Below, piece after piece: positions 38,250 through 56,138 of a stretch of DNA of 64,000 bases. The notes beneath the pieces were generated by a model, which did not search any database, had not been told where the DNA came from, and worked only from the letters and a program-made list of their open reading frames with translations. The position numbers and the translations under genes were made by a program. Within the stretch, counting starts at the first letter, position 1. Each line of letters starts with the position of its first letter. This DNA comes from Coriobacteriia bacterium (GTDB lineage Bacteria > Actinomycetota > Coriobacteriia > Coriobacteriales > Eggerthellaceae): contig JAUNCQ010000001.1 of NCBI GenBank assembly GCA_030526515.1, positions 62,001 through 126,000 on the forward strand, in the 5' to 3' direction.

Positions 38250-39638
38250 TTGCGCAAGACCGCGGCGAAAATCATGATGGTGGCGGCATCGGCGGCCGTG
38301 ACGGCGACCTTGGGGTCCGCCGTTGCCTGGGCTGATGCCGTTTCCCCTGTCGAGGAGGGCCTGCAGCCCCAGAACATCGGCGATACGGAGCCCGAGCCCG
38401 AGGCCGGTCCCGTGTACGACATGCGCGACTGCTGCACCATGAAGCTGAGCGCTACCAAGTTCGCCTACACCGGAAAGGCCATCAAGCCCGGTGTGACCGT
38501 GACCTTCACCGATCCCGAGACGGGGGAGACCTCCACGCTGCGGGAGGGTCGCGAGTACGACTACACGGTGACCTACCTGAACAACGTAAATGCCGGCACG
38601 GCCACCGTGGTGGTCGAGGGTAGCGGCTCCGAGCAGCTGGGCGGCTTCGTGGCCAGCCTGCGCAAGACCTTCACCATCAAGGCGCCGGACTACAAGGTCG
38701 CCACGGGCAACACCGCCTACATCATCAAGAACGGTCGCTCGAACACCTTCACCTCTGATGACGGCGCGGGCTGCGGCATCTCCGCTGGCAAGCTCACCGA
38801 CCGCCAGGCCATCATCCAGAACGCCTACATGAGCGGCATCAAGATCACCAACCGCTGCAAGAACATCAGCGGCACCATCAAGTACCGCGTGAACCAGCGC
38901 AACCGCGGCTGGAGCAGCTGGAAGACCGGCTCCGTTGCCGGCAGCACCGGCAAGGGATATGCCGCCCAGGCCATCGAGATCAAGCTCACCGGCGACCTGG
39001 CCAAGAAGTACGACGTGTACTACCGCGTGAACGTGTTCGGCTGCGACTGGATGGGCTGGGCCAAGAACGGCCAGACCTCCGGCGTGCTTTCCTCCGGACC
39101 GCTGTGCGTGCGCAAGTTCCAGGTGAAGCTGAAGCCCAAGGGATCTGCGGCGCCTGCCGGCTCCGGCCTGCCGCGCTGGTCCACCAGCTCCACCAAGGAC
39201 GCCTACTACAAGGCGGTCCTGAAGAGCAAGATCAAGTCCAAGTCCAGCGGCACCCAGTACGCTCTGTCCGTGAACACCGAGTTCAACCGCATGGCCGTGT
39301 TCAAGGGAAGCAACGGCAACTGGTCCCTGGTCAAGTACTGGAAGTGCACCACCGGCGCGTCCAACGAGCGCTACGCCACCAGCCACGCAACCTTCACCAC
39401 CACGGGCAAGCGCGGCCTGAGCTTCGGCGAAAAGGACGGCCATAGCTGCTGGTACTGGACGCAGATCTACTCCAGCGTTCGCTTTCACTCGGTGCTGTTC
39501 GTGCCGTACAGCAAGACCTCGCTGATCGACGGCACGCTGGGCGAGCGCCGCTCCAACGGCTGCATCCGCCTGCCCATCGAGGCCGCGAAGTGGATTTACC
39601 TGAACGTGACCAAGGGCACCACCGTGGTGATCTCCTAG
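38250..39638 (+). CDS. Secreted L,D-transpeptidase with ChW repeats
   Basis: 462 residues. A signal peptide (IMMVAASAAVTATLGSAVAWA) is followed by an Ig-like MBG-type domain (about 65-150) and ChW-type repeats (about 175-300, with GW..W..G and YDVYYRVNVFG pattern). The C-terminal YkuD domain has FHSVLF and the active-site segment RRSNGCIRL with the catalytic Cys. The usual His of SHGC is Asn. The enzyme would form 3-3 peptidoglycan cross-links or attach proteins outside the membrane. I use the TTG start because AGGAAAGG lies about nine bases upstream and no ATG begins the signal peptide. It is followed by a similar enzyme at 39707. Confidence 0.82.
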   Translation: MRKTAAKIMMVAASAAVTATLGSAVAWADAVSPVEEGLQPQNIGDTEPEPEAGPVYDMRDCCTMKLSATKFAYTGKAIKPGVTVTFTDPETGETSTLREGREYDYTVTYLNNVNAGTATVVVEGSGSEQLGGFVASLRKTFTIKAPDYKVATGNTAYIIKNGRSNTFTSDDGAGCGISAGKLTDRQAIIQNAYMSGIKITNRCKNISGTIKYRVNQRNRGWSSWKTGSVAGSTGKGYAAQAIEIKLTGDLAKKYDVYYRVNVFGCDWMGWAKNGQTSGVLSSGPLCVRKFQVKLKPKGSAAPAGSGLPRWSTSSTKDAYYKAVLKSKIKSKSSGTQYALSVNTEFNRMAVFKGSNGNWSLVKYWKCTTGASNERYATSHATFTTTGKRGLSFGEKDGHSCWYWTQIYSSVRFHSVLFVPYSKTSLIDGTLGERRSNGCIRLPIEAAKWIYLNVTKGTTVVIS

Positions 39639-39706: not shown

Positions 39707-41434
39707 ATGATTCGCAAGACTTTCAGCACCGCGATTGCGCTGGTGCTGGCCGCAGGCCTGTGCCCCGCTTCTGCCCTGGCTGAGGTGGCGCCCCAGGCGC
39801 CCGAGCAGCCCAAGGTCGAAGTGCAGGCCCAGGACGTTGACCTGGACGCCCAGGCTGCGGTGACCAACACCGTCAAGCTGGTGGACGCAATCACCGGCGC
39901 CGAGATCAAGGCTCAGTACACCGTGGAGGGCGAAACCGGCACTGCCGTGGCCGCCCCCAGCATCACCGGCTACAAGCTGGTTTCCCAGGACCCTGCTCTG
40001 ATCGGCCAGGAGGGTGACGAGATCGTCTTCGAGTACGCGAAGAAGGTCACCGTGACCGTCTACTACTACCGTACCGTGGGCGGCGTCCCCTCTGAGGAAA
40101 CCCAGATCCACGCCTCCACCACCAAGGCCGGCTACGAGGGCGAAAAGCTCACCGTGACCCCGGTGGAGATCGCAGGCTACGCCAAGCCCAAGGCCCAGTC
40201 CTTCACTCCGATGCCGGGCGAGCCCAACGTGGTGAAGTTCTTCTATTCTCCCGAGGTGGACTACAAGGTCAACTACTTCCTGTACAAGGGCGGTAAGACC
40301 ACTACCAAGGTGAAGGCCTCCAAGATCGGCTCCAGCTACGACGGCGCCACCGTGACCGCCAAGGCCCCGGAGATCTTCGGCTACGAGCTGGTGTCCGCTG
40401 CCTCCAAGAAGCTCTCCGTTTCCGAGGGCGGCACGAACACCGTCAGCTTCTACTACAAGAAGCTGGTCCAGAAGATGAGCTTCGAAACCACCAGCTACAT
40501 CTACTACAACCACAAGGTCTACAAGACCACGGCGACCACCAACAAGTCCGCCGCCAACACCAAGCTCAACGATCGCCTGGCCCAGGAGACCGGCGGCCGC
40601 ATGGTGGGCTTCCGCATCAAGAACACCAGCCAGGCCATCAAGGGCGACATCAAGTACCAGCTCTACCAGCGCGGCAAGGGTTGGACTGAGTGGCAGAACG
40701 GCAAGACCGCCGGCTCTTACAAGAACGAAAAGAAGAACTACAGCGGCCAGATCATCCGCGTGAAGCTGACCGAGGAGTTCGCTCAGAAGTACGACGTGTA
40801 CTACCGTGCCAAGATCTTCGGCGTGGGCTGGACCGGCTGGGCCAAGAACGGCCAGAACTGCGGTGCCAAGTTCGACTACTCCGTGCACCTGCGCGGCATC
40901 CAGGTGAAGCTGCTGCCCAAGGGCTCCGACGCTCCCGGCACCAGCAAGTTCCGCTATGTGAACGAAAAGGCCAAGGACGATTTCGCCAAGGCAGTTCTGT
41001 ACAACAAGATCCAGAACAAGGCCAGCCGCACCAAGTACATCATTGCGGTCAACACCGAGATGGGTCGCGTTGCCGTGTTCCAGGGCTCCCGTGGCAACTG
41101 GAACCGCATCAAGTACTGGCTGTGCACCTCCGGCCAGCCGGGTCATCTGACCCCGCATGGCGGCTACAACGTGGGCACCCGCGGCCTGCACTTCGGTGAG
41201 TCCCACATCCATCGCGGCTACCATTACACCGCCTGGTACTGGACCCAGATCAAGAACCAGGTCCTGTTCCACTCCGTGCTGTACCATGCCTACAGCCAGA
41301 CCAAGCAGCTGCCCGGCGGCCGCGGCTACGGCCTGGGCAAGCGCGAGTCCGGTGGCTGCATCCGCCTGGAGAAGGTCAACGCCTATTGGATCTACACCCA
41401 GGTGCCCCGCGGCACCGACGTCTGGATCTTCTAG
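39707..41434 (+). CDS. Secreted L,D-transpeptidase with MucBP-like and ChW repeats
   Basis: 575 residues. A signal peptide (FSTAIALVLAAGLCPASALA) is followed by about three MucBP-like repeats (about 55-245, each with Y....GY.L....KLTV-like pattern), ChW-type repeats (about 290-400: GW.EW.NG, YDVYYRAKIFGVGWTGWAKNGQ) and a YkuD domain with LFHSVLYH and RESGGCIRL. The catalytic Cys is present, and the SHGC His is Gly here. MucBP-like repeats suggest contact with mucin or other glycans, so the protein may combine wall cross-linking with surface display. AAGGAG precedes the ATG. A strong terminator follows. Confidence 0.82.
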   Translation: MIRKTFSTAIALVLAAGLCPASALAEVAPQAPEQPKVEVQAQDVDLDAQAAVTNTVKLVDAITGAEIKAQYTVEGETGTAVAAPSITGYKLVSQDPALIGQEGDEIVFEYAKKVTVTVYYYRTVGGVPSEETQIHASTTKAGYEGEKLTVTPVEIAGYAKPKAQSFTPMPGEPNVVKFFYSPEVDYKVNYFLYKGGKTTTKVKASKIGSSYDGATVTAKAPEIFGYELVSAASKKLSVSEGGTNTVSFYYKKLVQKMSFETTSYIYYNHKVYKTTATTNKSAANTKLNDRLAQETGGRMVGFRIKNTSQAIKGDIKYQLYQRGKGWTEWQNGKTAGSYKNEKKNYSGQIIRVKLTEEFAQKYDVYYRAKIFGVGWTGWAKNGQNCGAKFDYSVHLRGIQVKLLPKGSDAPGTSKFRYVNEKAKDDFAKAVLYNKIQNKASRTKYIIAVNTEMGRVAVFQGSRGNWNRIKYWLCTSGQPGHLTPHGGYNVGTRGLHFGESHIHRGYHYTAWYWTQIKNQVLFHSVLYHAYSQTKQLPGGRGYGLGKRESGGCIRLEKVNAYWIYTQVPRGTDVWIF

Positions 41435-41572: not shown

Positions 41573-43993
41573 TTGCACAAGACCGTGATCTATTCGCTTA
41601 CCAGCTCAGAGGTATACCGTCAGTACGCCGCCTGGCGCATGCGCGCCCGGGGCTTCTTCGGCACCGCCGCCCGTGACTGGATCGCTGCCATCAACGCCGA
41701 TCGCACCTGTGGCGACGGCGCATACTCCGCTGCCGAGCGCGACCGCGCCTACGGCTGGGGCTACCTGCCCCATGAGGTTTCGCTGCGGGGCATCACGGAG
41801 CAGAGCCGCGCTGGCCAGCTTTCCCATGAGGACTACGTGTACCTGTACCCGCTGAACGGCAAGTACGACAAGTGGCTGGAGGACCGTGCCGCCACCCACA
41901 AGGTGTTCGAGGGCTGGAAGGACCGCCTGGAGACCCTGCACTACCACATCATCCGCCGCGACGGCGCCCCCTTCATCATCCGCGTCACCGACGCCGCCCT
42001 GGCCAAGGAGCCCACGGCAGCGGGCCTGTACGAGTTCCTGCGAGAGCAGGGTCCCCAGCGCCTGATCTCCGCTCGCTGGTCGGAGGTGAACAGCTGGACC
42101 CTGGAGGCCGCCAACGAAACCTTCGTTCTGGACGGCGTGCCCTTCGACGAAGACCAGCTCATGCAGTGGATGTACCTGTTCATGCGCGAGCAGGACGACT
42201 CCCTGGTGCTGGTTGACGCCCTGCCTGACTCCTGCGGCTTCGAGGCCGTGGCCCCGAATGCCCAGGTGACCCTGCGTGCGTACATGGTCAACCAGGACGG
42301 CGCCCATCCGCGCCTGGAGCAGGCCGCGCTGCGCATTGCGTACCCCGCTGCCGACGGCCGCCTGATGCGCGTGGTGGACCGCAAGCGCACCCCGGAGAAG
42401 GGCGACCCCGCCCTCAAGAAGCACCTGCCCCTGGGCATTTGGAAGACCCCCGTCGACCAGGACTGCTACTGGGCCGACGTGGACGTGGCCACCGGCGCCT
42501 ATGAGGGTGCCGTGGCGGCGCAGGGGAGGGACGCCGTCTCTTTCGCCCGCATCCCGGAGGCTGAGCTGCCCCTTGCCGGCACCATCCAGGACCTGGACGA
42601 AATCCACCGTACCCTGCAGGCCATGTGCCGCTTCGTCCCCCAGATCGAGATGGTGTCCTTCGACATTCGCTGGGACGAGCAGGGCTTCCGCATCGTGGGC
42701 GCCAACCCGTACCCGGAGTACCTGCCGCTGGTGCCCTTCGCCCCGTCGGTCCAGGACTTCCTGCAGCGCCGCCTTGAGGAAAAGCGCGGTGTCTACGCCG
42801 ACGCCGCCCAGCGCCGCGAGCTGAGCCGCAACACCTTCAAGCTGAAGGTCCGCAAGATCTTCGCCAGCGCCGTGGGCCCCAAGGGCCTGGTGCCGTACCT
42901 GAGCACCTTCTGGATCCGCGACATGTGGCGTGACCTGACGTCCAGCAACGGCATGGGCCTGAAGGACAAGCTGTGGGCCTACGACCACGGCTTCCTGTCC
43001 TACCGCCTGCCCCAGTACGGCATCACGCGGCAGAACTGGAAGGGCTTCATCAGCGACTTCGAGTACCGCTACCTGCGTCACATCAACACCCATTACCGCT
43101 ACTGGCTGGAAGACAAGATCACCCTGAAGTACATTGCCGCCGACTTCAAGGAGTGCTTCCCGGCGTATTACTACTACATCACCGTCAAGGACGGACAGAA
43201 CCGCGTCATCCCCATGATGGACGTGCCGGAGGGCTATGCCGACACCTCCGCCGACGTGCTGCGCCTGGCCCGCGAGGTGGGCCAGCTGGCCCTGAAGCCC
43301 GACGAGGGCAGCCACGGCGAGGGCTTCTACAAGCTCTCTTGGGACGGCCAGGGCTACTTCCTGAACGGCGATCCTGCCGATGAGCAGAGGATCCTGGGCA
43401 TTCTGGAGGACCCGAACAACCAGTACCTGGTGACCGAGTACATCCAGATGCATCCCCAGATGGCCGAGCTGTACCCGGGCTCCGTGAACACCATCCGCGT
43501 GACCGTGTTCAAGCGTGATGGCCGCACGCCCCAGATCGGCAACGTGTACATGCGCGTGGGCTCCAGCCTGACCGGCGTGGTGGACAACGTGGCCGCCGGC
43601 GGCATCGTTGCCGAGGTGGACATCGAGTCCGGCCGCTACGGCAACGCCCAGCGCCTGGACGGCATCCACCAGGGCAACCTGGTCAGCTGCGCCGTTCACC
43701 CGGACACCGGCGTGGCCATCGAGGGCGTGCTGCCCAACTGGGAGGCCGCCAAGGAGCAGATCCTGCAGATCGCCCGCGCCATCCCGCAGCTGGAGTACTT
43801 CGGCTTCGACCTGGCCCTGACCCCCGACGGCATCAAGCTGCCGGAGATCAACCGCTTCCCCGACTTCCCCCGCGTGGACAAGCTCACGCCCCAGATCACC
43901 GACTACCTGCTGTACAAGCTCGAGCGCAAGAAGCGCGTGTACGGCTACCACAAGAAGCCCTGCCGCAAGCTGCTGCACCTGCCCAAGCGCTAG
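41573..43993 (+). CDS. Tandem ATP-grasp protein (sugar-transfer associated type), N-terminal copy degenerate
   Basis: 806 residues. The C-terminal half (about 455-790) is an ATP-grasp domain of the type found in capsule and teichoic acid loci: LALKPDEGSHGEGFYKL (lid), YLVTEYIQMHP, NTIRVTVF, VDNVAAGGIVAEVD and PEINRFPDFPRVDKL for metal binding. The first half (about 20-400) follows the same order weakly (TLRAYMV, SFDIRWDEQGFRIVGANPYPE) but lacks the lysine and glycine-rich lid, so it looks like an inactive duplicate. The domain would form an amide or similar bond with ATP. It heads a run with a TagB-like transferase and another ATP-grasp protein. The TTG start is uncertain, and GTG at 41585 is an alternative. 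Confidence 0.7.
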   Translation: MHKTVIYSLTSSEVYRQYAAWRMRARGFFGTAARDWIAAINADRTCGDGAYSAAERDRAYGWGYLPHEVSLRGITEQSRAGQLSHEDYVYLYPLNGKYDKWLEDRAATHKVFEGWKDRLETLHYHIIRRDGAPFIIRVTDAALAKEPTAAGLYEFLREQGPQRLISARWSEVNSWTLEAANETFVLDGVPFDEDQLMQWMYLFMREQDDSLVLVDALPDSCGFEAVAPNAQVTLRAYMVNQDGAHPRLEQAALRIAYPAADGRLMRVVDRKRTPEKGDPALKKHLPLGIWKTPVDQDCYWADVDVATGAYEGAVAAQGRDAVSFARIPEAELPLAGTIQDLDEIHRTLQAMCRFVPQIEMVSFDIRWDEQGFRIVGANPYPEYLPLVPFAPSVQDFLQRRLEEKRGVYADAAQRRELSRNTFKLKVRKIFASAVGPKGLVPYLSTFWIRDMWRDLTSSNGMGLKDKLWAYDHGFLSYRLPQYGITRQNWKGFISDFEYRYLRHINTHYRYWLEDKITLKYIAADFKECFPAYYYYITVKDGQNRVIPMMDVPEGYADTSADVLRLAREVGQLALKPDEGSHGEGFYKLSWDGQGYFLNGDPADEQRILGILEDPNNQYLVTEYIQMHPQMAELYPGSVNTIRVTVFKRDGRTPQIGNVYMRVGSSLTGVVDNVAAGGIVAEVDIESGRYGNAQRLDGIHQGNLVSCAVHPDTGVAIEGVLPNWEAAKEQILQIARAIPQLEYFGFDLALTPDGIKLPEINRFPDFPRVDKLTPQITDYLLYKLERKKRVYGYHKKPCRKLLHLPKR

Positions 43994-44023
43994 GTGAGCC
44001 CGGTACGGACGAAAGGAAACCCG

Positions 44024-45163
44024 TTGAAGCAGATCATCCTGACCGTGGGCAAGGCCGGCCTTGCCGCCGTGTACGCGGTGCTGAAGCTCTTTCCCACCCA
44101 CCCGCGCAAGGTGGTGTTCCTGAGCCGCCAGACCAGCGGCATGCCGCTGGATTTCGCCCTGCTCCAGGACCAGCTGCGGAAGGACTGCCCTGACGTGGAG
44201 ATGGTGAGCATCTGCCATCGCATCAAGGAGGACTCCACCGCTGACAAGCTGCGCTTCTGCGGCAACATGCTGCGCAGCATGTACCATCTGGCCACGTCCC
44301 AGGCCGCCATCCTGGACACCTACTGGCCGGCGGTGAGCCTGCTGAACCACAAGAAGGACCTGACGGTGATCCAGATCTGGCACGCCATCGGCAAGATCAA
44401 GCAGTCCGGCTATCAGACGCTGGGCCGTTCCGGCGGCCGCTCCGAGCAGCAGGCCCGCGCCCTGCACATGCACGAGGGCTACGACTACATCATCGCCGGC
44501 GCCCCCGTCTGGAACCCCTTCTACTGCGCGTCCTTCGGCTGCACCGAGGACAAGCTGGTCAACATAGGCCTGCCCCGCATGGACTACCTGGTCCACGACC
44601 GGGAGGAAAAGCGCGAGCGCATCTTCGCCGCCTACCCGCAGCTGCGGGGCCGCACGGTGGTGCTGTATGCGCCCACCTTCCGCCGCAACGCGGAGGAGGC
44701 GTCCCAGAAGGGCTATGCCGACCTGCTTTCTCGGGTGGACACGGAAAAGTACGCCTTCGTGGTGAAGGGCCATCCTAACCAGGCGGTCATGGGGGAGGGC
44801 TTCCTGCGCTGCGCCAAGTTTTCCGCCATGGACCTGCTGCTGGTGGCCGACTACCTGATCACCGACTACTCCGCCATCACCCTGGAGGGCGCGGTGGCCG
44901 GCGTGCGCACCCTGTTCTACCAGTACGACTATGACGACTACATGGCCAACAACGGCCTGAACCTGGACGTGTCCCGCACCATGCCCAGCTGCGCTCATCG
45001 CAACGCCCAGGAGCTGCTGGACGCCCTGGACTCCTACGTGGACGGCACGGCGGAGTATCCGGAGGACGAGCGCCAGGAATTCGCCCGGACTTATGTTCTT
45101 TCTGACCTTGGTCACGCCACGAAGGACCTTGCCGACTTGGTAATCCGCAATATGCGGGTATAA
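44024..45163 (+). CDS. TagB/TagF-like CDP-polyol phosphotransferase
   Basis: 379 residues, single-domain. A hydrophobic N-terminus (IILTVGKAGLAAVYAVLKLF) may anchor it at the membrane. The glycerophosphotransferase domain has IQIWHAIGKIKQSG, IGLPRMD, LYAPTFRR, FVVKGHPN and YLITDYSAITLEGAV. Its size fits the priming TagB class better than the polymerising TagF class. I chose the TTG at 44024 because AAAGGA lies seven bases before it; a GTG at 43994 would overlap that site. Its last codons contain the promoter of the next gene. Confidence 0.82.
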   Translation: MKQIILTVGKAGLAAVYAVLKLFPTHPRKVVFLSRQTSGMPLDFALLQDQLRKDCPDVEMVSICHRIKEDSTADKLRFCGNMLRSMYHLATSQAAILDTYWPAVSLLNHKKDLTVIQIWHAIGKIKQSGYQTLGRSGGRSEQQARALHMHEGYDYIIAGAPVWNPFYCASFGCTEDKLVNIGLPRMDYLVHDREEKRERIFAAYPQLRGRTVVLYAPTFRRNAEEASQKGYADLLSRVDTEKYAFVVKGHPNQAVMGEGFLRCAKFSAMDLLLVADYLITDYSAITLEGAVAGVRTLFYQYDYDDYMANNGLNLDVSRTMPSCAHRNAQELLDALDSYVDGTAEYPEDERQEFARTYVLSDLGHATKDLADLVIRNMRV

Positions 45164-45164: not shown

Positions 45165-45235
45165 GATTCGGTTATAGAATGGCTGCCGCTGCGCCCTCAG
45201 GGCGAAAGCGGCTTTACGTGGATAATCGAGGACCC

Positions 45236-46303
45236 ATGAGTTCGTTTGTAAAGAGGAGCATCAAGAAGGCCAAGCTGGTGGTGCTGTGGTTCCGCCGCAT
45301 CCTTTTCGCCCCGAATCATTTCAAGGAAGTCGGCTTCCTGACCAAGCTGCGCATGAACGTCAGCGGCGGCTACCTGGCCGATCAGTACGCCCTGTACGAC
45401 TTCAAGAACAACGACCGTCACCAGTACCTGAGCGAGTTCGACTGGTATCGGTCCCGTTGGATCAACGAGCCCTTCGACCAGATGTGCAACAACAAGATCA
45501 TCTGCACCAACGTGCTTGATCCCTACGTGACCTGCCCCAAGCTGCTGTTCATGAAGAACCACGGCCGCATGGTGTCCCTTGAGTTCCAGAACGCCGACGG
45601 CTACAAGACCACCGACGACGTGGTCGAGCTGCTGCGTCAGTACGGCTCCCTGTTCATGAAGCCCCTGGCCGCCGGCAAGGGCAAGGGCGTGCGTCGCCTG
45701 GACCTTGAGGGCGAGCAGCTGATGATCGACACCAAGCCCGTGACCCTGGAGCAGTTCGATGCCTTCCTGACCAAGGAGGACGGCTGGTTCCTGTCCGAGG
45801 GCATGAAGCAGAGCGCCTTCGAGGACGGCCTGTACGACCAGACCACCAACACCATCCGCTTCATCACCATGCGCGACCCCGAGTCCGGCGACTTCAAGGT
45901 GTTCTTCGCCGTCCAGCGCATCGGCACCAGCGCCACCATCCCCGTGGACAACGGCTCCCGCGGCGGCCTGGTGGCCAAGATCGACCTGGAGACCGGCGAG
46001 CTCTCCGCCGCCCATACCCTGCAGCACCACGGCTGGCACAAGGTCCATCCGGATTCCGGCGCGCCCATCGAAGGCGCCGTGATCCCCAACTGGGACCGCC
46101 TGAAGGAGGACATGCTCACCCTGGCCCGCCGCTTCCCGTTCATGAACTTCATTGCCTGGGACATCCTGCTGACCGACACCCCGGAGGGCTTCTGCATCGT
46201 GGAGGCCAACACCTCCTCCGGCGTGAACATCATCCAGCTGTTCGGCCCCCAGCGCAACGGCGAGCTGGGCGACTTCTACCGCGCCCACGGCGTCATCAAG
46301 TAG
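45236..46303 (+). CDS. ATP-grasp protein, sugar-transfer associated type
   Basis: 355 residues. Family signals include LFMKPLAAGKGKGVRRLDL (lysine and glycine-rich lid, about residues 140-158), NTIRFITMRD, VDNGSRGGLVAKIDL and FIAWDILL...GFCIVEANTSSG for metal binding. It is probably a ligase that joins an amino acid or another acid to an amine on a polymer precursor; the substrates are unknown. I prefer the ATG at 45236 (GAGGA just upstream) because the alternative ATG at 45179 lies only 15 bases after the -10 box and lacks a Shine-Dalgarno. The leader carries one GGGCGAAAG copy at 45200. It is followed closely by the nucleotidyltransferase. Confidence 0.78.
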   Translation: MSSFVKRSIKKAKLVVLWFRRILFAPNHFKEVGFLTKLRMNVSGGYLADQYALYDFKNNDRHQYLSEFDWYRSRWINEPFDQMCNNKIICTNVLDPYVTCPKLLFMKNHGRMVSLEFQNADGYKTTDDVVELLRQYGSLFMKPLAAGKGKGVRRLDLEGEQLMIDTKPVTLEQFDAFLTKEDGWFLSEGMKQSAFEDGLYDQTTNTIRFITMRDPESGDFKVFFAVQRIGTSATIPVDNGSRGGLVAKIDLETGELSAAHTLQHHGWHKVHPDSGAPIEGAVIPNWDRLKEDMLTLARRFPFMNFIAWDILLTDTPEGFCIVEANTSSGVNIIQLFGPQRNGELGDFYRAHGVIK

Positions 46304-46318
46304 AAAAGGACCCGCTGC

Positions 46319-46933
46319 ATGCGCTACGTCATCATGGCAAACGGCAAGGGGACCCGTTGGAACAACTACGACGGCATCCCCAAGCATCTGATCAACATAG
46401 GGGGCGAAACCCTGCTCCAGCGCACCACGCGCCTGGTGCATGCCTTCGACCCCCAGGCGGAGGTGGTGATCACCTCCCATAACCCGGACTGCGTGGCCCA
46501 GGGCGCCCGCCGCTACGAGCCGCTGCGCTCCGAGCGCGAGATCGACCGCTTCTGCGTGGAGCTGGTGCAGGACGGCGTGTGCTTCCTGTACGGCGACGCC
46601 TTCTACTCCACGGACACCATCCGCCAGGTGGTGGAGGCGTCCGTGGAGGACATGCTCTTCTTCGGCAACCCGGCCACCATCGTGGCCGTCAAGGTGGCGC
46701 AGGGGGAGTGCATGCTGGAGCATCTGCGGGACATCGACCGGCTCATCGAGCAAGGCGCGATCGCCGATGCCAAGGGCTGGCAGCTCTACCACCACCTCAT
46801 GGGCATGCCCCTGGACGGCAAGGACATTGCCGGCAAGTTCGTGGTCCTGGAGGACCGCACCACTGATTTCAACCGACCGGAGGACTACGAGCAGTTCGTA
46901 GGCGCCTTGGAGAACGAAAGGGCTCAGCAATAA
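46319..46933 (+). CDS. Small nucleotidyltransferase (NTP-transferase fold)
   Basis: 204 residues. The N-terminal loop MANGKGTRWNNYDGIPKHL is the NTP-transferase signature with a G.GTR..PK order, then LINIGGETLLQRT and a YGDAFYS segment where the metal-binding Asp normally sits. It would make a nucleotide-activated sugar or alcohol. AAAAGGA is eight bases upstream of the ATG. The stop and the next start overlap as TAATG, so it is translationally coupled to the Mur ligase-LRR gene and both very likely act in one pathway. Confidence 0.75.
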   Translation: MRYVIMANGKGTRWNNYDGIPKHLINIGGETLLQRTTRLVHAFDPQAEVVITSHNPDCVAQGARRYEPLRSEREIDRFCVELVQDGVCFLYGDAFYSTDTIRQVVEASVEDMLFFGNPATIVAVKVAQGECMLEHLRDIDRLIEQGAIADAKGWQLYHHLMGMPLDGKDIAGKFVVLEDRTTDFNRPEDYEQFVGALENERAQQ

Positions 46934-48945
46934 TGAAGATCACCTGGAAGGCCATCAAGAAGAAGCTGGGCATCAAGCCCAAGCAGGTCAAGACCTACAC
47001 CTTCGGCCAGGTCTGCAAGGCCCTGGACGCCCAGCCGCCCGCGGGCCTGGAGGACAAGCTGGACCAGAAGGTCAGCTTGCTTTCGCCCGCCAGCAAGCTG
47101 TGCGTTCCCGGCTCCGTGTACATGGTCAACGAAGGCTATGCCACGTCCAAGGTCAACGTCACCCGCGCCTTCCGCAACGGCGCCCTGTGCGCGGTAGCGC
47201 CCTTCCAGCTGGTGGACGAAAACGACGCTCCCGTACCCTGCATCATCCACCCGGATGCCGAGGGCGTCATGGCCAAGCTGTGCCACGGCGTGATCGAATC
47301 CACCGACGTGAAGACCGTCTGCATCACCGGTTCCGTGGGCAAGACCTCCGTCAAGACCATGATGGACCTGGTCAGCCGCTCCAAGTTCCAGACCGTCACC
47401 TCCCGCTCCAACCAGAACGGCTTCGGCCAGGCTGCGCGCTACGCCCAGAACCTGACCATGGAGGACAAGGTCTACATCCAGGAAACCGGCATGAGCCGCC
47501 CGGGCCGTCTGGGCCAGGCCATCGACATCATCCATCCCAACGTGTTCGTGATCACCAACATCGGCCTGAACCACGTGGGCAAGTTCGGCGGCAAGCAGGA
47601 AAACATCCTGCATGAGAAGCTGGTGCTGGACCGCCTGGCTGCCGACGACGGCGTGGGCTTCGTCAACTGGGACGACCCGCTGCTGAAGACCGCCACCTAC
47701 CAGCACAAGGTCTACGGCTGCGCCGTGGACGATGCCACCGCCGACTACCATGCGGAAAACGTGGTGGAGCGCAACGCCTGCCTGCACTTCGACGTGGTGG
47801 AGACCGCCACCGGCCAGCGCACCCCGGTGAAGCTGAACGTGGTGGGCCGCCACAACGTGTTCAACGCCGTGGTCGCCTTCGCCTTCGGCCTGTACCTGGG
47901 CGTTGACCGCGCCACCATTGCCAAGGCCCTGCTGGGCTTCCGCACCGAGGGCGTGCGCCAGAACTACACCGAGGCCAAGGGCCAGCGCCTGTACCTTGAC
48001 TGCTACAACGCCTCCGAGGGCGCCATCAACTCCGTCCTGGACACCATCGGCACCATCGACGTGCCCGAGGGCGCCAAGCGCGTCCTGGTGCTGGGCGATA
48101 TCGACGACAAGCTGGGCGACCGCACCGAGGAGATCCACCGTCGCGTGGGCCGCACCGTGGCCGCCAAGGCCACGTCCGACCTGACGCTGTTCTTCGGCAA
48201 CCACATGCTGTGGGCTGCCGAGGATGCCAAGGCTGGCGGCGCCGAGGTCCTGGCCACGGAGGATCGCGGCCAGCTGGAGGAGTGGATCCGCGAGCACGTG
48301 GGCCCCGGCGACCTGGTTGCCTTCAAGGGCGGCCAGCAGATGGAGCTGTCCCGCACCGTGGACGCCATCTTCGACACCCCGTACTTCCTGCTTGACGGCG
48401 ACGTGATCATCAAGCTGGCGCCGGTGAACACCCATGTGGGCAACGGCGAGTACCGCAAGGTCACCGGCTACGGCCTGGACCTGTACCGCGTGAAGAAGGG
48501 CGTCAAGGAGTTCACCGCCGAGTCCGTGGTAGACGGCATGGAGCTGCGTGCCATGAGCCGCGGCGCCGCCCTGGAGCGCCAGGACCTGGAGAAGGTCACC
48601 CTGCCCGCTCCGCTGCGCTCCATCGGCCAGAACGCCTTCTACCGCTGCACCTCCCTGCGCTCCGTGGAGCTGCCCGGCACCCTGCGCTTCATCGGTCGCA
48701 GCGCCTTCAACACCTGCCGTCGCCTGGAGACCGTGGTCATCCCGGAGGGCGTTCATACCCTGGACGAGCGCTCCTTCGCCTTCTGCAAGCGTCTGCGCAG
48801 CGTGGAGCTTCCCGCATCCCTGAAGACCATCGGCCCCGAGGCCTTCCTGGGCACCGAGGGCGTGACCTTCACGGCCCCGGCTGGCTCCTTCGCCGCCGAG
48901 CACATCAAGGCAAACTACCCCGAAGCCAAGCTGGTGGAGGCGTAG
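46933..48945 (+). CDS. MurF-like Mur ligase fused to BspA-type leucine-rich repeats
   Basis: 670 residues. The central Mur ligase domain (about 100-470) has the P-loop GSVGKTSVKTMM (GSVGKT at 133-138), IQETGMSRPGRLG, ITNIGLNHVGKFGGKQENILHEK and a C-terminal part with a CYNASEGAINSVLDTI motif in the place of the usual D.YNANP.S. From about residue 555 to 665 there are four LRR_5 repeats (LRSIGQNAFYRCTSLRSVELP and three more of that type). Mur ligases form amide bonds with ATP, and the LRRs are usually found on surface proteins, so the combination is unusual. With two ATP-grasp genes upstream, a peptide-like modification of a polymer precursor is plausible. There is no signal peptide. Confidence 0.82.
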   Translation: MKITWKAIKKKLGIKPKQVKTYTFGQVCKALDAQPPAGLEDKLDQKVSLLSPASKLCVPGSVYMVNEGYATSKVNVTRAFRNGALCAVAPFQLVDENDAPVPCIIHPDAEGVMAKLCHGVIESTDVKTVCITGSVGKTSVKTMMDLVSRSKFQTVTSRSNQNGFGQAARYAQNLTMEDKVYIQETGMSRPGRLGQAIDIIHPNVFVITNIGLNHVGKFGGKQENILHEKLVLDRLAADDGVGFVNWDDPLLKTATYQHKVYGCAVDDATADYHAENVVERNACLHFDVVETATGQRTPVKLNVVGRHNVFNAVVAFAFGLYLGVDRATIAKALLGFRTEGVRQNYTEAKGQRLYLDCYNASEGAINSVLDTIGTIDVPEGAKRVLVLGDIDDKLGDRTEEIHRRVGRTVAAKATSDLTLFFGNHMLWAAEDAKAGGAEVLATEDRGQLEEWIREHVGPGDLVAFKGGQQMELSRTVDAIFDTPYFLLDGDVIIKLAPVNTHVGNGEYRKVTGYGLDLYRVKKGVKEFTAESVVDGMELRAMSRGAALERQDLEKVTLPAPLRSIGQNAFYRCTSLRSVELPGTLRFIGRSAFNTCRRLETVVIPEGVHTLDERSFAFCKRLRSVELPASLKTIGPEAFLGTEGVTFTAPAGSFAAEHIKANYPEAKLVEA

Positions 48946-48951
48946 CCGCCT

Positions 48952-51780
48952 ATGCTCAGTTCCCGCGCACGCAAGGCCGACCTGCGGTTCTACGCTGCCC
49001 TGGTGGCAGGCGTCACAGCCATGTTCCTGGCCGTGTACGCCTACCACTTCGCCACGGGCAAGACACTCATGTGGAAGGGCGATGCGGTTTCGCAGTACTA
49101 CAACTTCTTCGTGTACGAAGGGGAGTGGCTGCGCCAGATCGTGGCCGACCTGGCAGCAGGCAACGGCCTGGTGATCCCGGCGTTCACCTACGACCTGGGC
49201 TATGGCTCCGACGTGCAGACGGCCCTGGGCGGCATGATCACCGACCCGCTGAACCTGGTGTCGGCCCTGTGCCCGCCGGCCTATGCCGAGGGCCTGTTCT
49301 GCTTCCTGATCTACGTGCGCTACCTGCTGGCGGCCGTGGCGTTCTGCGCCTTCTGCCGCAGCCGCAAGGCCCCGCGCCCGGCGGCGCTGGCGGCGTCCCT
49401 GGCCTATGTGGGCACCGGCTACGTGCTGTTCTGGGCGTGCCTGCGCCATCCGAACTTCCTGAACGTGGCCATCATGCTGCCGCTGCTGTTCCTGGCGGCG
49501 GACCGCATCTTCGCCCGCAAGAGCCCGGTGCCGTTCATCTGCGCCCTGGCTGTGACCTTCGCCTTCAGCGTGTACTTCAGCTACTGGACCTGCTTCCTGT
49601 TCCTGGGGTACTGCCTGATTCGCTACTTCTTCGGCCCCCGAGACCGCTCCGCCAGGGACTTCGCCCTGCTGGTGGGTCGCTTCGTGGTCTACATCGTCAT
49701 TGCCTTCTGCATCTCCGCAGTGGTTTCCCTGCCCATGGTGCACGCCCTGCTCTCCATGGGCCGCGTGGGCGAAAGCGCCTCCGTGCCCCTGCTGTACTCC
49801 CTGGCCTACTACGTGAGCATCCCCCTGAACCTGGGCGGCGGCACCGTGGACATCATGGGCCAGTACGTGGGTCCGGTGCTGCTGGTGGCTGCCGTGCTGT
49901 TCGCCGGCGCCCGCCGCTTCCTGCCCCGTGACGTGTTCATGCCCACCGCCGTGGGCTCCGTTGCCTGCCTGGTGCTCATGCTCATCCCGGCCTTCGGCAG
50001 CTTCATGAATGGATTCGGGTACCCCACGGACCGCTGGCTGGTGGCCCTGGGCTTCTGCTTCAGCTACGCCCTGTGCCTGGTGCTGCCGGTGCTCGGCTGC
50101 CTGGAGCGCCGTGATTGGGTCCGCTGCGGCGTGGCGGTGGCCGTGGTGCTGGTGCTGGAGCTGGTGGGCGCCCTGTTCGACGGCTCCCTGCTGACGCTTC
50201 TGCCCTGCGCGCTGCTCATCGCATGCTTCGCCCTGTTCCTGGTCATGTCCCGCTGGGACAATGCCCGCCGCCAGGCGCTGGTGACCGGCGTCCTGTGCGT
50301 GTGCTGCACCCTGTGCGTGTGCCTGGTGAACTACGCCCATGCCGGTGGCAACTACGGCAAGGAGTTCACCAAGGGCATGAACGCCTGGTCCAAGGTGCAG
50401 GCTTCCCCGGCTGCCGCCGTGGCCAAGCTGGGGGACGAAGGGGACTATCGCTTCGACTATGCCGGCAAGATCGACAAGAAGAACCGCTCCCTGGTGGTAG
50501 GGGAGCGCGGCACCGACTTCTTCACCAGCTACTACAACCAGGCCGTGGACGACTTCCGCCAGGAAATGGAGTACACGGACTCTTCCAACCACCATGCCTA
50601 CCTGGGCTCCGACAGCCGCTTGGCGTCCGAGCTGCTCATCGGCGCCAAGTACGTGGTTGCCAAGAAGGGCGACGCGACCCGCGTGCCTGCGGGCTACGCC
50701 AAGATCGGCGCCACCAAGAAGTTCGACCTGTACCAGGCGAACGACCCCACGCCCCTGGCCTTCACCTATGACTCCTACCTGGACCGCGCCGCCTACGAGG
50801 CGCTGCCGGTGCAGGAGCGCCAGGAGGTGCTGCTGCGCACCTGCGTGCTGGGCGCCTCCAGCAAATCCAAGCCCAGCGGCGCGGAGGTGTCCGTTGACGC
50901 GGTGCCTCAGGCCGACGGCCAGGACCTTGCGGCCAGCGCCAAGGTGAGCACCAAGATGAAGGTGGTTCCCAGCGAGGGCGTGACCTTCAAGGACGGCAAG
51001 GTGGTGGTGACCAAGCGCGGCGCCACCCTGAAGATCCAGGTCCCCGACGCCCTGGATGACTCCGAGGTCTACCTGCGCCTGTCCGGCTTCGACTACGTGG
51101 GCAACCGTCCCTCCGGCAAGGCCAAGAAGGGCTCCAGCCTGCTGCGCCGCCTGCGGGTGAAGATGGATTCCCTGACCTGGTCGTCCACGAAGATCTGCAT
51201 CGTGAAGGCCCAGGCGGGCAAGCATAAGGCGGACTTCACCTACAAGACCAAGGACAACACCACCTACGGCGACAAGCACGAGTGGTGCATGAACCTGGGC
51301 TACTTCAAGAAGGCCCCCAAGACCATCACGCTGACCCTGGCCTACCGCGGCACCTACACCTTCGACGACCTGCAGGTCATCAGCCAGCCCGTGGCTCCGC
51401 TGCTGGCCCAGGCCAAGGTGCTCGGCCGCAACGCCATTGATGACGTGGAGTACGGCGCCAACGTGGTCCGCGCTACCGTGGATACGGGCGAAAACGCCAA
51501 GATGGCCTTCTTCAGCCTGCCGTACTCCGCGGGCTGGACGGCCACCGTGGACGGCGCGGAGGTGCCGCTGATGCGGGCCAACACCGGCTTCATGGCCGTT
51601 GAGGTGGGTCCCGGCCAGCATGCGGTGGAGCTGCGCTACGCTACCCCCGGCCGCTCCACCGGAGCGCTGCTGACCGTGGCGGGCCTGGCGGCCCTGGCGG
51701 CGGTGGTGCTGCTGGGCCGACGCAGGAGCGCGCAGGAGCAGGAACAGGAGCCCGTGCGGGGCAAGCATGCCCGGCGGTAA
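48952..51780 (+). CDS. YfhO-type multi-spanning membrane glycosyltransferase (GT-C fold)
   Basis: 942 residues. About a dozen membrane segments in the N-terminal ~480 residues (for example AALVAGVTAMFLAVYAYHF) include the early GDAVSQYYNFF motif typical of YfhO proteins (residues ~43-53). A large soluble part (about 490-900) and a last membrane helix (LLTVAGLAALAAVVLLG) with a basic tail follow. In Bacillus and Listeria, YfhO partners a GT2 such as CsbB and moves a sugar from undecaprenyl phosphate to lipoteichoic acid outside the membrane. Here the following aminotransferase, GT2 and EmrE-like genes supply matching steps. It starts six bases after the previous stop. Confidence 0.85.
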   Translation: MLSSRARKADLRFYAALVAGVTAMFLAVYAYHFATGKTLMWKGDAVSQYYNFFVYEGEWLRQIVADLAAGNGLVIPAFTYDLGYGSDVQTALGGMITDPLNLVSALCPPAYAEGLFCFLIYVRYLLAAVAFCAFCRSRKAPRPAALAASLAYVGTGYVLFWACLRHPNFLNVAIMLPLLFLAADRIFARKSPVPFICALAVTFAFSVYFSYWTCFLFLGYCLIRYFFGPRDRSARDFALLVGRFVVYIVIAFCISAVVSLPMVHALLSMGRVGESASVPLLYSLAYYVSIPLNLGGGTVDIMGQYVGPVLLVAAVLFAGARRFLPRDVFMPTAVGSVACLVLMLIPAFGSFMNGFGYPTDRWLVALGFCFSYALCLVLPVLGCLERRDWVRCGVAVAVVLVLELVGALFDGSLLTLLPCALLIACFALFLVMSRWDNARRQALVTGVLCVCCTLCVCLVNYAHAGGNYGKEFTKGMNAWSKVQASPAAAVAKLGDEGDYRFDYAGKIDKKNRSLVVGERGTDFFTSYYNQAVDDFRQEMEYTDSSNHHAYLGSDSRLASELLIGAKYVVAKKGDATRVPAGYAKIGATKKFDLYQANDPTPLAFTYDSYLDRAAYEALPVQERQEVLLRTCVLGASSKSKPSGAEVSVDAVPQADGQDLAASAKVSTKMKVVPSEGVTFKDGKVVVTKRGATLKIQVPDALDDSEVYLRLSGFDYVGNRPSGKAKKGSSLLRRLRVKMDSLTWSSTKICIVKAQAGKHKADFTYKTKDNTTYGDKHEWCMNLGYFKKAPKTITLTLAYRGTYTFDDLQVISQPVAPLLAQAKVLGRNAIDDVEYGANVVRATVDTGENAKMAFFSLPYSAGWTATVDGAEVPLMRANTGFMAVEVGPGQHAVELRYATPGRSTGALLTVAGLAALAAVVLLGRRRSAQEQEQEPVRGKHARR

Positions 51781-51808: not shown

Positions 51809-51833
51809 AGGCAGCAGGAAGACAGAGCATGTC

Positions 51834-51838
51834 AGGAG
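51834..51838 (+). promoter_or_regulatory. Ribosome binding site (AGGAG) that decides the wecE start
   Basis: AGGAG is five bases before GTG 51844. An in-frame ATG at 51829 lies before it and so cannot use it. Starting at GTG gives MIPFNKPP, matching the start of E. coli WecE (MIPFNAPP). Confidence 0.7.
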
Positions 51839-51843
51839 ATATC

Positions 51844-52983
51844 GTGATTCCCTTCAACAAACCGCCCTACGTGGGCACCGAGCTCGAGTACGTTCGCCAG
51901 AGCGTGGAAGAGGTCGGCAAGATCAGCGGCGACGGCCCCTTCACCAAGAAGTGCCATGCCTGGCTGGAGGAGCGCTTCGACGCCCAGAAGGTCCTGCTGA
52001 CCACCAGCGGCACCGCTGCCCTGGAGATGGCCGCCCTGCTGTGCGACCTTCAGCCCGGTGACGAGGTCATCCTGCCCAGCTACACCTTCAGCTCCACGGC
52101 CACGGCCTTCGTCCTGGTCGGTGCCAAGCTGGTGTTCGTGGACGTGCGTCCGGACACCATGAACCTGGACGAGGAGAAGATCGAGGCCGCCATCACCGAC
52201 AAGACCCGCGTCATCGTGACGGTGGACTACGCCGGCGTGGCTTGCAACATGGAGCGAATCTGCCAGATCGCCCATGACCATGGCCTGTTGGTGGTGGAGG
52301 ATGCCGCACAGGGCGTCATGTCCACCTACCGCGACCGTGCCCTGGGAACCCTGGCCGACCTTGGCTGCTATTCCTTCCACGAGACCAAGAACTACTCCAT
52401 GGGCGAAGGCGGTGCGCTGGTCATCAACGACGCCCGCTTCAACGAGCAGGCCGAGATCCTGCGCGAGAAGGGCACCAACCGCAGCCGCTTCTTCCGCGGC
52501 CAGGTGGACAAGTACACCTGGGTGTCCTACGGCTCCAGCTACCTGCCCTCCGACATGAACGCTGCCTACCTGTGGGGCCAGCTCCAGGCCGCTGACCAGA
52601 TCAACGACGACCGCCTGGCCACCTGGGCCTTCTACCACGAGTCCTTCGCCCCGCTGGCCGAGGCTGGCAAGCTCGAGCTGCCCTTCGTGCCCGGGGACTG
52701 CGTGCATAACGCCCACATGTACTACGTCAAGTGCGCCGACCTGGCTGAGCGCACCGCGCTGATCGCCTATGCCAAGGAGCGCGGCGTGGGCATGAGCTTC
52801 CACTACGTGCCCCTGCACTCCAGTCCCGCCGGCCTGCAGTTCGGCGTGGTCCGCGGCGGTATGGACGTGACCGACCGTGAGAGCGACCGCCTGGTGCGCC
52901 TGCCGCTGTACTACGGCATGACCGATGACGACCGCGCTGCGGTGGTGCAGGTGGTCCGCGACTTCTACGCTCAGGCAGAGTAG
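51844..52983 (+). CDS. wecE: dTDP-4-amino-4,6-dideoxygalactose transaminase (WecE/RffA-like)
   Basis: 379 residues, matching WecE in length and along most of its sequence: GDGPFTKKCHAWLEERF, DVRPDTMNLDE, VVEDAAQGVMSTY, the PLP-lysine segment SFHETKNY, and GTNRSRFFRGQVDKYTW. The enzyme is a PLP-dependent aminotransferase that makes the nucleotide-activated amino sugar dTDP-Fuc4N from a keto sugar. Next to YfhO, an ArnC/GtrB-type GT2 and EmrE-like subunits, the sugar is probably attached to an exported polymer rather than to enterobacterial common antigen. Upstream enzymes for dTDP-sugar synthesis (rmlA/rmlB type) are not in the window. Confidence 0.88.
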   Translation: MIPFNKPPYVGTELEYVRQSVEEVGKISGDGPFTKKCHAWLEERFDAQKVLLTTSGTAALEMAALLCDLQPGDEVILPSYTFSSTATAFVLVGAKLVFVDVRPDTMNLDEEKIEAAITDKTRVIVTVDYAGVACNMERICQIAHDHGLLVVEDAAQGVMSTYRDRALGTLADLGCYSFHETKNYSMGEGGALVINDARFNEQAEILREKGTNRSRFFRGQVDKYTWVSYGSSYLPSDMNAAYLWGQLQAADQINDDRLATWAFYHESFAPLAEAGKLELPFVPGDCVHNAHMYYVKCADLAERTALIAYAKERGVGMSFHYVPLHSSPAGLQFGVVRGGMDVTDRESDRLVRLPLYYGMTDDDRAAVVQVVRDFYAQAE

Positions 52984-52992
52984 GGGGCTGAC

Positions 52993-53946
52993 GTGCTGGT
53001 TTCCGTGGTCATACCCTGCTACTACTCGGAGAAGACCATTGCCAAGGTGGTGCGGCTGACCCGTCAGGAGCTGACGGGCGCCGGCTACGACTACGAGTTC
53101 GTGCTGGTCAACGACGGCTCCACCGACGGCACTTTCGCCCAGATCCGCGAGCTCTGCGCCGAAGACCCCTGCGTGGTGGGCGTGGACTGCGCCAAGAACA
53201 TGGGCCAGCACAACGCCATCATGGCGGGACTGAAGCAGGCCCAGGGCGATGCCGTCCTGCTGATGGACGATGACATGCAGACCCATCCCTCCCAGGTGCT
53301 CAAGCTGCTGGCAGGGCTGGAGGAGTCCGGAAAGGACGTGGTGTTCGCCGAGTGGCCGGAGCACAAGGAGGCCCTGTGGCGCCGCCTGGGGTCGCGCTTC
53401 CAGGCCTGGACCGTGCGGGTTCTGACCAAGCGCCCCAAGGACATCTACTCCAGCAACTTCTTCGTCATGCGCAGACACGTGCGGGACGAGATCATCCGCT
53501 ACCGCGGTCCCTTCGTCTACATCCAGGGACTGCTGTTCCGCGCCACCGACAGCGTCTGCAACGTGGAGGTGGAGCACTTCGCCCGCGAAGAGGGCCGCTC
53601 CGGCTACACGCTGAAGAGCCTGATCCGCCTGTGGTCCACGGTGCTGGGCTTTTCCCTGGCACCGCTGCGCGCCGCCCTGTGGCTGGGCGTGGCCGCCTGC
53701 GGCGTGGGCCTGGTGCTGGCGCTGCTGCTGGTGATCCAGCACTTCACGGACCCGGTTTCCGTGGAAGGCTGGACGTCGCTCATGGTGATTATGCTGGTCC
53801 TGGGCGGCCTGAACCTGGCCTTCCTGGGCCTGATCGGCGAGTACCTGGGACGCACGTTCCTGACCGTCAGCAACGCACCGCAGTTCGTACCGCGCACCGT
53901 GCTTGATGCGCGTTCCAAGGAAGGGGGCGAAGACCATGCAGCATAG
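52993..53946 (+). CDS. Polyprenyl-phosphate glycosyltransferase (ArnC/GtrB-type GT2)
   Basis: 317 residues. The GT2 domain has SVVIPCYYSEKT, LVNDGSTDGTF, KNMGQHNAIMAGL and LLMDDDMQTHP. YTLKSLIRLWSTV is followed by two membrane helices (LWLGVAACGVGLVLALLLVI; LMVIMLVLGGLNLAFLGLIGEYLG), the usual end for dolichyl/undecaprenyl-phosphate sugar transferases. It would move the amino sugar from dTDP onto undecaprenyl phosphate on the inner face. GTG start with AGGGGG five bases upstream. The next gene overlaps its last 11 bases. Confidence 0.88.
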   Translation: MLVSVVIPCYYSEKTIAKVVRLTRQELTGAGYDYEFVLVNDGSTDGTFAQIRELCAEDPCVVGVDCAKNMGQHNAIMAGLKQAQGDAVLLMDDDMQTHPSQVLKLLAGLEESGKDVVFAEWPEHKEALWRRLGSRFQAWTVRVLTKRPKDIYSSNFFVMRRHVRDEIIRYRGPFVYIQGLLFRATDSVCNVEVEHFAREEGRSGYTLKSLIRLWSTVLGFSLAPLRAALWLGVAACGVGLVLALLLVIQHFTDPVSVEGWTSLMVIMLVLGGLNLAFLGLIGEYLGRTFLTVSNAPQFVPRTVLDARSKEGGEDHAA

Positions 53947-55222
53947 GCTCCTGGTCCTGGGTTCCATGGACGAGTTCGTGGAGCTGGTCCGCACCGCGCA
54001 GCGCCGCGGCATCTACGTGATCGCCTGCGATGGCTACGACGACGGTCCCGCCAAGCCGGTGGCCGACGCCGCCTTCACCATTGACGTGCGCAACACCCAG
54101 GCCATTGCCCAGCTGTGCCGTGAGCAGCGGGTGGACGGCATCATCACGTCCTTTTCCGACCTGCTGGCGGAGTGCATGGCCAACATCTGCGCTGCCACCG
54201 GCCTGCCCGGCTACGTGAAGCCGGAGGGCATCCGCTACCTGCGGGAAAAGCCCCTTATGAAGCAGATGTTCCAGGAGCTGGGCATCCCGTCGCCCGCGTC
54301 CGTGTGCGTGCATCGGGACACCCTTGAGCACGATCTGGCCCAGGTGGGCTTCCCCTGCGTGGTCAAGCCTGCCAACGGCTACGGCAGCCGCGGCGTGTAC
54401 GTGCTGGAAAGCGCCGAGCAGGTGCGGGAGCGCTTCGACGAGATCGTGTCCTACTCCGCCTTCGACTACCTGCTGGCCGAAGAGTACAACCGCGGGTTCG
54501 AGATCAACATGATGAACTGGATCGTGGACGGCGAGCCCGTGGTCCTGGGCATGGCTGATCGCGAGAAGACCCAGGACGTGCCCTTCGCCATTCCCCATGT
54601 GAGCCGCAACGCCTATCCGAGCCGCTTCGCCGCGGACGCCTACGACCAGGCCCGGGACATCATCCGCAAGGTGGCGGCGTACACCGGCATCGACTGCGGC
54701 CCCATGAGCATGCAGTTCTTCTGGGAGCCCGGCAAGGGCATCCAGGTGTGCGAGATCGCCGGCCGCCTGTTCGGCTACGAGCATGAGCTGGTCACCTACG
54801 GCAGCGGCCTGTCCATTGAGGAGCTGCTGATCGACTGGGTCTACGACCGCGACGCCCTGCGCGCGCGGCTGGCCGGCCATACGCCCTTCTACGACCGCTG
54901 CAGCGCGGTGATCTACTTCCACGGCCATGAGGGAACCGTGGGCAACGTGGACGCTGCCTGCGCTGCCGCCGACCTGCCCGGCATGGAGGACGCCCTGGTG
55001 TTCTATCAGCCCGGCGATGTGGTGGGGCACGGGGTGGGCGCCAAGCCCTACGTGGCCCGCTACTACGTGAGCGCCCCGGACCGTGCGGCCCTGGATGCCC
55101 TGACCGCGCAGCTCTACGGCAGCGTCACCGTCACCGATGACGCCGGCAACAATCTGCTGCACGCCAACCGCATGCTGGATTACGACGCGGCCCTTGCCGC
55201 CAACGGAGTCGACCTTGGCTAG
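53936..55222 (+). CDS. ATP-grasp ligase of the carboxylate-amine ligase type
   Basis: 428 residues. Rossmann-like N-terminus (LLVLGSMDEFVELVRTAQRRG), then ATP-grasp signals: KPLMKQMFQELGIPSPA, FPCVVKPANGYGSRGVYVL, LLAEEYNRGFEINMMNWI and QVCEIAGRLFGYEHELVTYGSG for metal binding. This class joins a carboxylate to an amine using ATP. Between an amino-sugar transferase and its probable flippase, the likely acceptor is the 4-amino group of the sugar or its lipid-linked form, with an amino acid as donor; this is inference. The ATG has AAGGGGG eight bases upstream and overlaps the preceding gene. Its own end overlaps the next start. Confidence 0.8.
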   Translation: MQHRLLVLGSMDEFVELVRTAQRRGIYVIACDGYDDGPAKPVADAAFTIDVRNTQAIAQLCREQRVDGIITSFSDLLAECMANICAATGLPGYVKPEGIRYLREKPLMKQMFQELGIPSPASVCVHRDTLEHDLAQVGFPCVVKPANGYGSRGVYVLESAEQVRERFDEIVSYSAFDYLLAEEYNRGFEINMMNWIVDGEPVVLGMADREKTQDVPFAIPHVSRNAYPSRFAADAYDQARDIIRKVAAYTGIDCGPMSMQFFWEPGKGIQVCEIAGRLFGYEHELVTYGSGLSIEELLIDWVYDRDALRARLAGHTPFYDRCSAVIYFHGHEGTVGNVDAACAAADLPGMEDALVFYQPGDVVGHGVGAKPYVARYYVSAPDRAALDALTAQLYGSVTVTDDAGNNLLHANRMLDYDAALAANGVDLG

Positions 55223-56065: not shown

Positions 56066-56138
56066 TTCCTAGATTGACCCTGCGGCAATCCGCGGGAGAC
56101 GAAATGTAATTGCTACCGAATTGCAGGATAAACGTACT

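Follow-up and report, generated by a model that had tools for sequence, protein, structure and literature searches.

The 64,000-nucleotide stretch of Coriobacteriia DNA analysed here (the window) carries at 46933–48945 a gene in which a Mur ligase is joined to BspA-type leucine-rich repeats (LRR_5); this gene and the neighbours listed in this paragraph all lie on the forward strand. Its open reading frame runs for 670 codons with no internal stop and opens with an ATG that shares a base with the stop codon of the gene upstream (TAATG at 46931–46935). That upstream gene encodes a small nucleotidyltransferase (NTP_transf_3; 46319–46933), the marker of the locus type described below. It is preceded, by domain annotation, by the two core genes for an ATPgrasp_ST protein (45179–46303) and a TarB/TarF-like CDP-glycerol-type phosphotransferase (Glyphos_transf; 43994–45163), and by a gene for an 806-aa ATPgrasp_ST protein (41573–43993). 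On the 3' side of the fusion gene, domain annotation gave in order a YfhO-type membrane protein of the GT-C glycosyltransferase family (48952–51780), a WecE-type sugar aminotransferase (51829–52983), an ArnC/PgfS-like, CsbB-like GT2 glycosyltransferase (52993–53946), and an ATP-grasp ligase (53903–55222). Further along lie a TagG-like ABC-2 membrane subunit (56121–56951) and a TagH-like ABC ATPase (56869–57690), both with homologues in the same five other loci (G024, G012, G312, G260, and G522).

A long run of teichoic-type genes at 783–38142 comprises two LicD genes, an IspD/TarI-like cytidylyltransferase, GT2-Glyphos_transf fusions, a 1222-aa double Glyphos_transf protein, and an FGGY kinase, so that much of the window can be regarded as a surface-polymer island. 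Two YkuD L,D-transpeptidases are encoded just upstream of the locus (38250–39638 and 39707–41434), both with ChW repeats and one with MucBP; frames homologous to them were also seen in L106 and L160. The product of Ddl is the dipeptide used by MurF. Since the window genome has a single Ddl, positioned outside the Mur-LRR locus, a dedicated dipeptide supply is not evident in it.

An initial annotation, made from the sequence alone, had described a complete MurF-like catalytic region followed by four LRR_5 repeats; Pfam, an AlphaFold2 model (mean pLDDT 86.5, pTM 0.73), and homologues confirmed this description. In the model, a complete MurF fold (residues 17–482) is separated from the repeats by a flexible linker, and these residues match full-length MurF structures (4qf5: Z 38.7, 444 residues aligned, rmsd 2.9). 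The N-terminal domain (residues about 17–130; 46981–47322) gave no Pfam match; it folds like that of MurF but lacks the D-G-H motif. It is followed by the ATP-binding domain Mur_ligase_M (residues 131–317; 47323–47883; Pfam E 2e-26), with the P-loop GSVGKT, E184, H214, and K229, and by Mur_ligase_C (residues 346–466; 47968–48330; Pfam E 6e-10), with D356, N359, and K465. Both Pfam domains, the three-domain fold, and the P-loop, Mg, and nucleotide residues place the protein in the Mur ligase superfamily. The low-confidence linker (residues 486–519; 48388–48489; pLDDT <50) leads to four 23-residue repeats (residues 552–643; 48586–48861) and a C-terminal cap; the LRR_5 match (PF13306) spans residues 549–649 with E 9.7e-24 and scores 84.1 bits, above the gathering score of 27.7.

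BspA-type LRR_5 proteins are mostly secreted surface proteins. The repeats described here share with them the 23-residue length, the LRR_5 consensus, and the cap, but they look cytosolic and are joined to a ligase. By hydropathy, a crude measure used on its own, neither a signal peptide nor a membrane or wall anchor was seen in the window protein (highest 19-residue mean within the first 45 aa, 0.07), in agreement with the cytosolic appearance that had been noted from the sequence. A similarly crude test detected a strongly hydrophobic N-terminus in 0 of 16 fusion proteins, several of which were translated from stop to stop and thus have approximate start sites. A further LRR_5 protein of the window genome, a 759-aa frame at L003:394–2670, also has no obvious hydrophobic segment.

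The weak point named in the initial annotation, a separate LRR gene joined to the ligase by a sequencing error, is excluded by homologous fusions, and so is an assembly error. In G001, a separately assembled genome of the same genus, the fusion is 85% identical over residues 1–669 and hence across the joint, and nine further proteins have both parts in frame. The search for the combined architecture disclosed 11 Mur-LRR proteins, distributed over 8 genomes that belong either to the window's class, Coriobacteriia, or to Clostridia: single copies in the window genome (G000), G001, G024, G032, G110, and G260, three in G425, and two in G522. A search of 60 relatives gave strong matches in three more genomes, one at 85% and two at 30–32% identity, all reaching into the LRR. 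Profile searches found the fusion in 5/138 genomes of the window's family, 5/396 of its class (threshold 1e-80, best two candidates per genome scored), and 2/391 of Clostridia (1e-95, best three candidates scored), the two class samples being drawn evenly and further copies per genome possibly escaping. For Clostridia, only matches entering the LRR were counted, and 33 of the 35 listed genomes were set aside as MurF, their match ending at or before model position 519. A horse-faeces MAG (L017) is among the Clostridia finds; a tandem pair of fusions occupies L017:7243–11875, with CHAP/NlpC-type secreted proteins nearby. Origin from a mobile element or plasmid was rejected, the plasmid search giving only one record at 80% coverage and 23.6% identity.

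Mur paralogues devoid of LRR were also found in G425 and G522, which implies that the chemistry can do without the LRR. Within Clostridia, three Mur-LRR and two LRR-less Mur proteins carry a distantly CapA-like N-terminal region; these five regions aligned with five PGA_cap stretches at an hhalign probability of 96 (E 1.4e-9, 110 columns). LRR-less ligases with such a degenerate CapA-like region lie at L106:10598–12835 and L140:8948–11263, one of them adjoining an amino acid permease.

The Mur-LRR gene sits together with the TarF-like Glyphos_transf, ATPgrasp_ST, and small nucleotidyltransferase genes in six of the eight genomes, and these teichoic-type neighbours bear out the polymer-synthesis setting suggested by the initial annotation. 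In G260 it is unlinked to the core, which is on another contig; in G110 it occupies a 3.5-kb contig, with the core elsewhere; and G425 has an additional solo copy. The nucleotidyltransferase marker was detected in 11 of 787 genomes of the two classes (8/396 and 3/391), and all seven Mur-LRR genomes of this sample are among those 11 (Fisher p 9e-15, kinship ignored). Fusion of the nucleotidyltransferase to a long ATPgrasp_ST protein in G110 (L150:7955–11458), G012 (L151:10806–13787), and G155 (L152:10094–13090) hints that the two act together. The detached Mur-LRR gene of G260 (L100:8965–12766) adjoins a gene for a zinc-ribbon protein showing traces of LRR, and two GlfT2-like glycosyltransferases are encoded nearby.

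Further genes vary among the loci. LCP proteins are encoded in the G032, G024, and G522 loci, and two TupA-like ATP-grasps in that of G024. The loci of G024 and G522, one from each class, contain a second Ddl besides the one elsewhere in the genome, and in G522 it lies directly 3' of the Mur-LRR gene. An amino acid permease adjoins the Mur-LRR gene in G110 and an LRR-less Mur paralogue in G425. The G032 locus encodes an alanine-dehydrogenase-like protein (L098:15689–16714) that scored 101.6 bits against an alaDH cut-off of 391.85; it may possibly be an enzyme of the opine type that produces an unusual amino acid.

Four genomes (G012, G155, G739, and G312) have the core without a Mur-LRR gene, and three of these carry LRR_5 on other enzymes of the locus: LRR_5-PGA_cap and ATPgrasp_ST-LRR_5 in G012, LRR_5-PGA_cap and LRR_5-PGA_cap-ATPgrasp_ST in G155, and PGA_cap-LRR_5-ATPgrasp_ST in G739. 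In G312, no LRR or Mur match was found within the 19.9 kb examined. Every LRR ORF in the 18 locus stretches (16 rows, G001 included) is a fusion with Mur, ATPgrasp_ST, and/or PGA_cap. As LRR_5 is fused to ATPgrasp_ST and/or CapA in three of the four core genomes lacking Mur-LRR, it is a module that recurs in loci of this type and travels with the pathway rather than with one enzyme.

The initial annotation had proposed that the repeats bind partner ligases or the polymer precursor. Binding to a polymer or partner gains weight from the presence of the same module on ATPgrasp_ST and CapA in sister loci; pairing between enzymes through their LRRs lost ground for the window, G032, and G024 loci, where no LRR protein other than the Mur ligase was found. 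For these loci, the polymer or a common partner devoid of LRR is therefore the likelier ligand, as far as gene content can tell. The window LRR scored 75–80 bits (best single domain) in the three closest members from other genera, 16–63 in the others, and at most 59 in the other LRR proteins compared, so its likeness to Mur-LRR repeats is only modestly higher than to generic ones. Conservation gave little support to a specific recognition surface, since LRR identity to the window merely tracks Mur identity without exceeding it.

MurF (TIGR01143) is the closest NCBIfam model to the window protein, which scored 221.7 bits, below the cut-off of 288.6, and four other members scored 196.6–232, so that all five fell short of it. 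The N-terminal D-G-H motif of MurF, which we take to contact the uridine nucleotide, is present in 0/13 family rows versus 38/53 MurF rows. In a tree of 66 rows, built with every second of 106 MurF-like candidates, a 100/100 branch separates the 53 MurF rows, among them the MurF of the window genome, from all 13 family rows; four family rows are long-branched and two of these meet, which leaves the branching order within the family unsure. The window genome's own MurF adjoins MurE on another contig and, along with the tree clade and the missing motif, this eliminates the window protein as the MurF of its genome. A D-C-x-N motif considered as family-specific was dropped because it occurs in 16/53 MurF rows too. 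There is also the reading of an alternative peptidoglycan ligase, an additional MurF attaching a variant dipeptide to UDP-MurNAc-peptide in the manner of Van-type remodelling; closeness to MurF by sequence and fold and the extra Ddl genes in two loci are in its favour, but the scores, the motif, the tree, the resident MurF, and neighbours that are teichoic-type rather than peptidoglycan genes make it quite improbable.

The nucleotide- and metal-binding residues are nearly completely kept across two distant groups: G133, G136, K137, N162, E184, G305, N308, N311, D356, and K465 are identical in 13/13 family rows, and R342 is kept in 12/13 and K229 in 11/13. This conservation makes it highly implausible that the Mur domain is a relic on a non-catalytic scaffold in which the LRR does the work, even if 2/13 rows have another residue at K229, the putative carbamylated lysine (C in L010), and some members may therefore be impaired. 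With these residues kept and the D-G-H motif missing, we infer that the family likely performs the same chemistry as MurF on a different acceptor; the three-domain fold and the ATP/Mg site are common to both, whereas the LRR_5 tail and the teichoic-type locus are further differences from MurF. The acceptor could conceivably be an amino acid chain, perhaps polymer-borne, that is extended by a polyamide synthase as in poly-gamma-glutamate (CapB/PgsB with CapA) or cyanophycin synthesis. The combination of a Mur-type ligase with PGA_cap, seen as CapA genes and fusions in sister loci and as the degenerate CapA-like domain of Clostridia Mur proteins, resembles the CapA/CapB system, though with a ligase that is MurF-like rather than CapB-like, and several ATP-grasps are present in each locus. 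We nevertheless consider a polyamide synthase unlikely: neither a CapB-like nor a CapC gene was identified among the annotated loci (the annotation outputs contained no CapB model), the cyanophycin synthetase score was very low (25 bits), and no PGA_cap was found by Pfam among the window genes scanned.

We favour, at somewhat better than even confidence, a cytosolic ATP-dependent amide ligase of MurF fold that now serves a teichoic-type wall polymer instead of peptidoglycan and uses LRR_5 for docking. The kept catalytic residues, the gene linkage, the second Ddl genes, the permeases, the TagGH-like and LCP genes, and the LRR_5 fusions of sister loci speak for this reading; the single Ddl of the window genome, the K229 replacements, the unlinked or solo copies, the LRR-less paralogues, and the modest kinship of the repeats weigh against it. 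The following activity, substrate, and LRR ligand are what we infer for this ligase. The Mur domain would use ATP to convert a carboxylate carried by a polymer subunit or a lipid-linked precursor to an acyl phosphate and, before export, join an amino acid or a D-Ala-D-Ala-type dipeptide to the activated group. Neighbouring ATP-grasps may add further residues. The decorated polymer would then leave through the TagGH-like ABC transporter and be attached to the wall by LCP proteins, while the LRR_5 docking domain would tether the ligase to the polymer or to a common LRR-free partner in the assembly complex. A broader and rather speculative extension is that interchangeable amide ligases (Mur and ATPgrasp_ST) and CapA, sharing an intracellular LRR_5 docking module, make peptide-bearing teichoic-type chains, ended by D-Ala-D-Ala in some species, and that the L,D-transpeptidases beside several of the loci (window, L106, and L160) could cross-link these chains to peptidoglycan. 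If true, peptides would link a teichoic-type polymer covalently to the wall.

Each component is already known on its own: Mur ligases, LRR_5, ATPgrasp_ST, CapA, and teichoic-type transferases. Linked peptide ligases within one operon have been described for surface-polymer pathways, teichuronopeptides included (PMC4431377). Such ATP-grasp loci (ATPgrasp_ST, TupA-like) are comparable to ours in the ATPgrasp_ST neighbours and in the TupA-like proteins of G024 but differ in that no Mur-LRR fusion is described there, in the literature consulted. In B. subtilis, S. aureus, and L. monocytogenes, the targets of YfhO are LTA or WTA, and YfhO with CsbB glycosylates these polymers in other Gram-positives (PMC8035078). 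The YfhO and CsbB-like GT2 genes 3' of the window Mur-LRR gene recall this CsbB/GtcA/YfhO glycosylation of teichoic acids, whereas YfhO beside Mur-LRR was found only in the window and G001.

The open-access literature, outside which most subscription papers lie, yielded no joint treatment of Mur ligase, leucine-rich repeat, and ATP-grasp, nor one of PGA_cap with ATP-grasp or of sugar-transfer associated ATP-grasp. Likewise, nothing on a Mur-LRR fusion appeared among the titles of the open-access matches listed (the best 10 of 94 in one case), and the open-access literature searched held no description of LRR_5 as a module common to amide ligases of one surface-polymer locus. The words 'Mur' and 'leucine' are absent from the available portion of the text of PMC2824669.

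The rare conserved locus, with MurF-like and ATP-grasp ligases, an LRR module, and in some cases an extra Ddl, predicts amide-linked amino acids or peptides on teichoic-type polymers. Classically, teichoic acids bear single D-alanine esters and sugars. The locus also provides a concrete gene set for testing the 'sugar-transfer associated ATP-grasp' family, whose description is still loose, and suggests an intracellular use for BspA-type repeats. Wall polymers ended by D-Ala-D-Ala, if they are indeed made, would be new ligands for glycopeptide antibiotics. Overall, the amide ligases and LRR_5 at this locus hint at an unstudied amino-acid decoration of wall polymers in distant bacteria.
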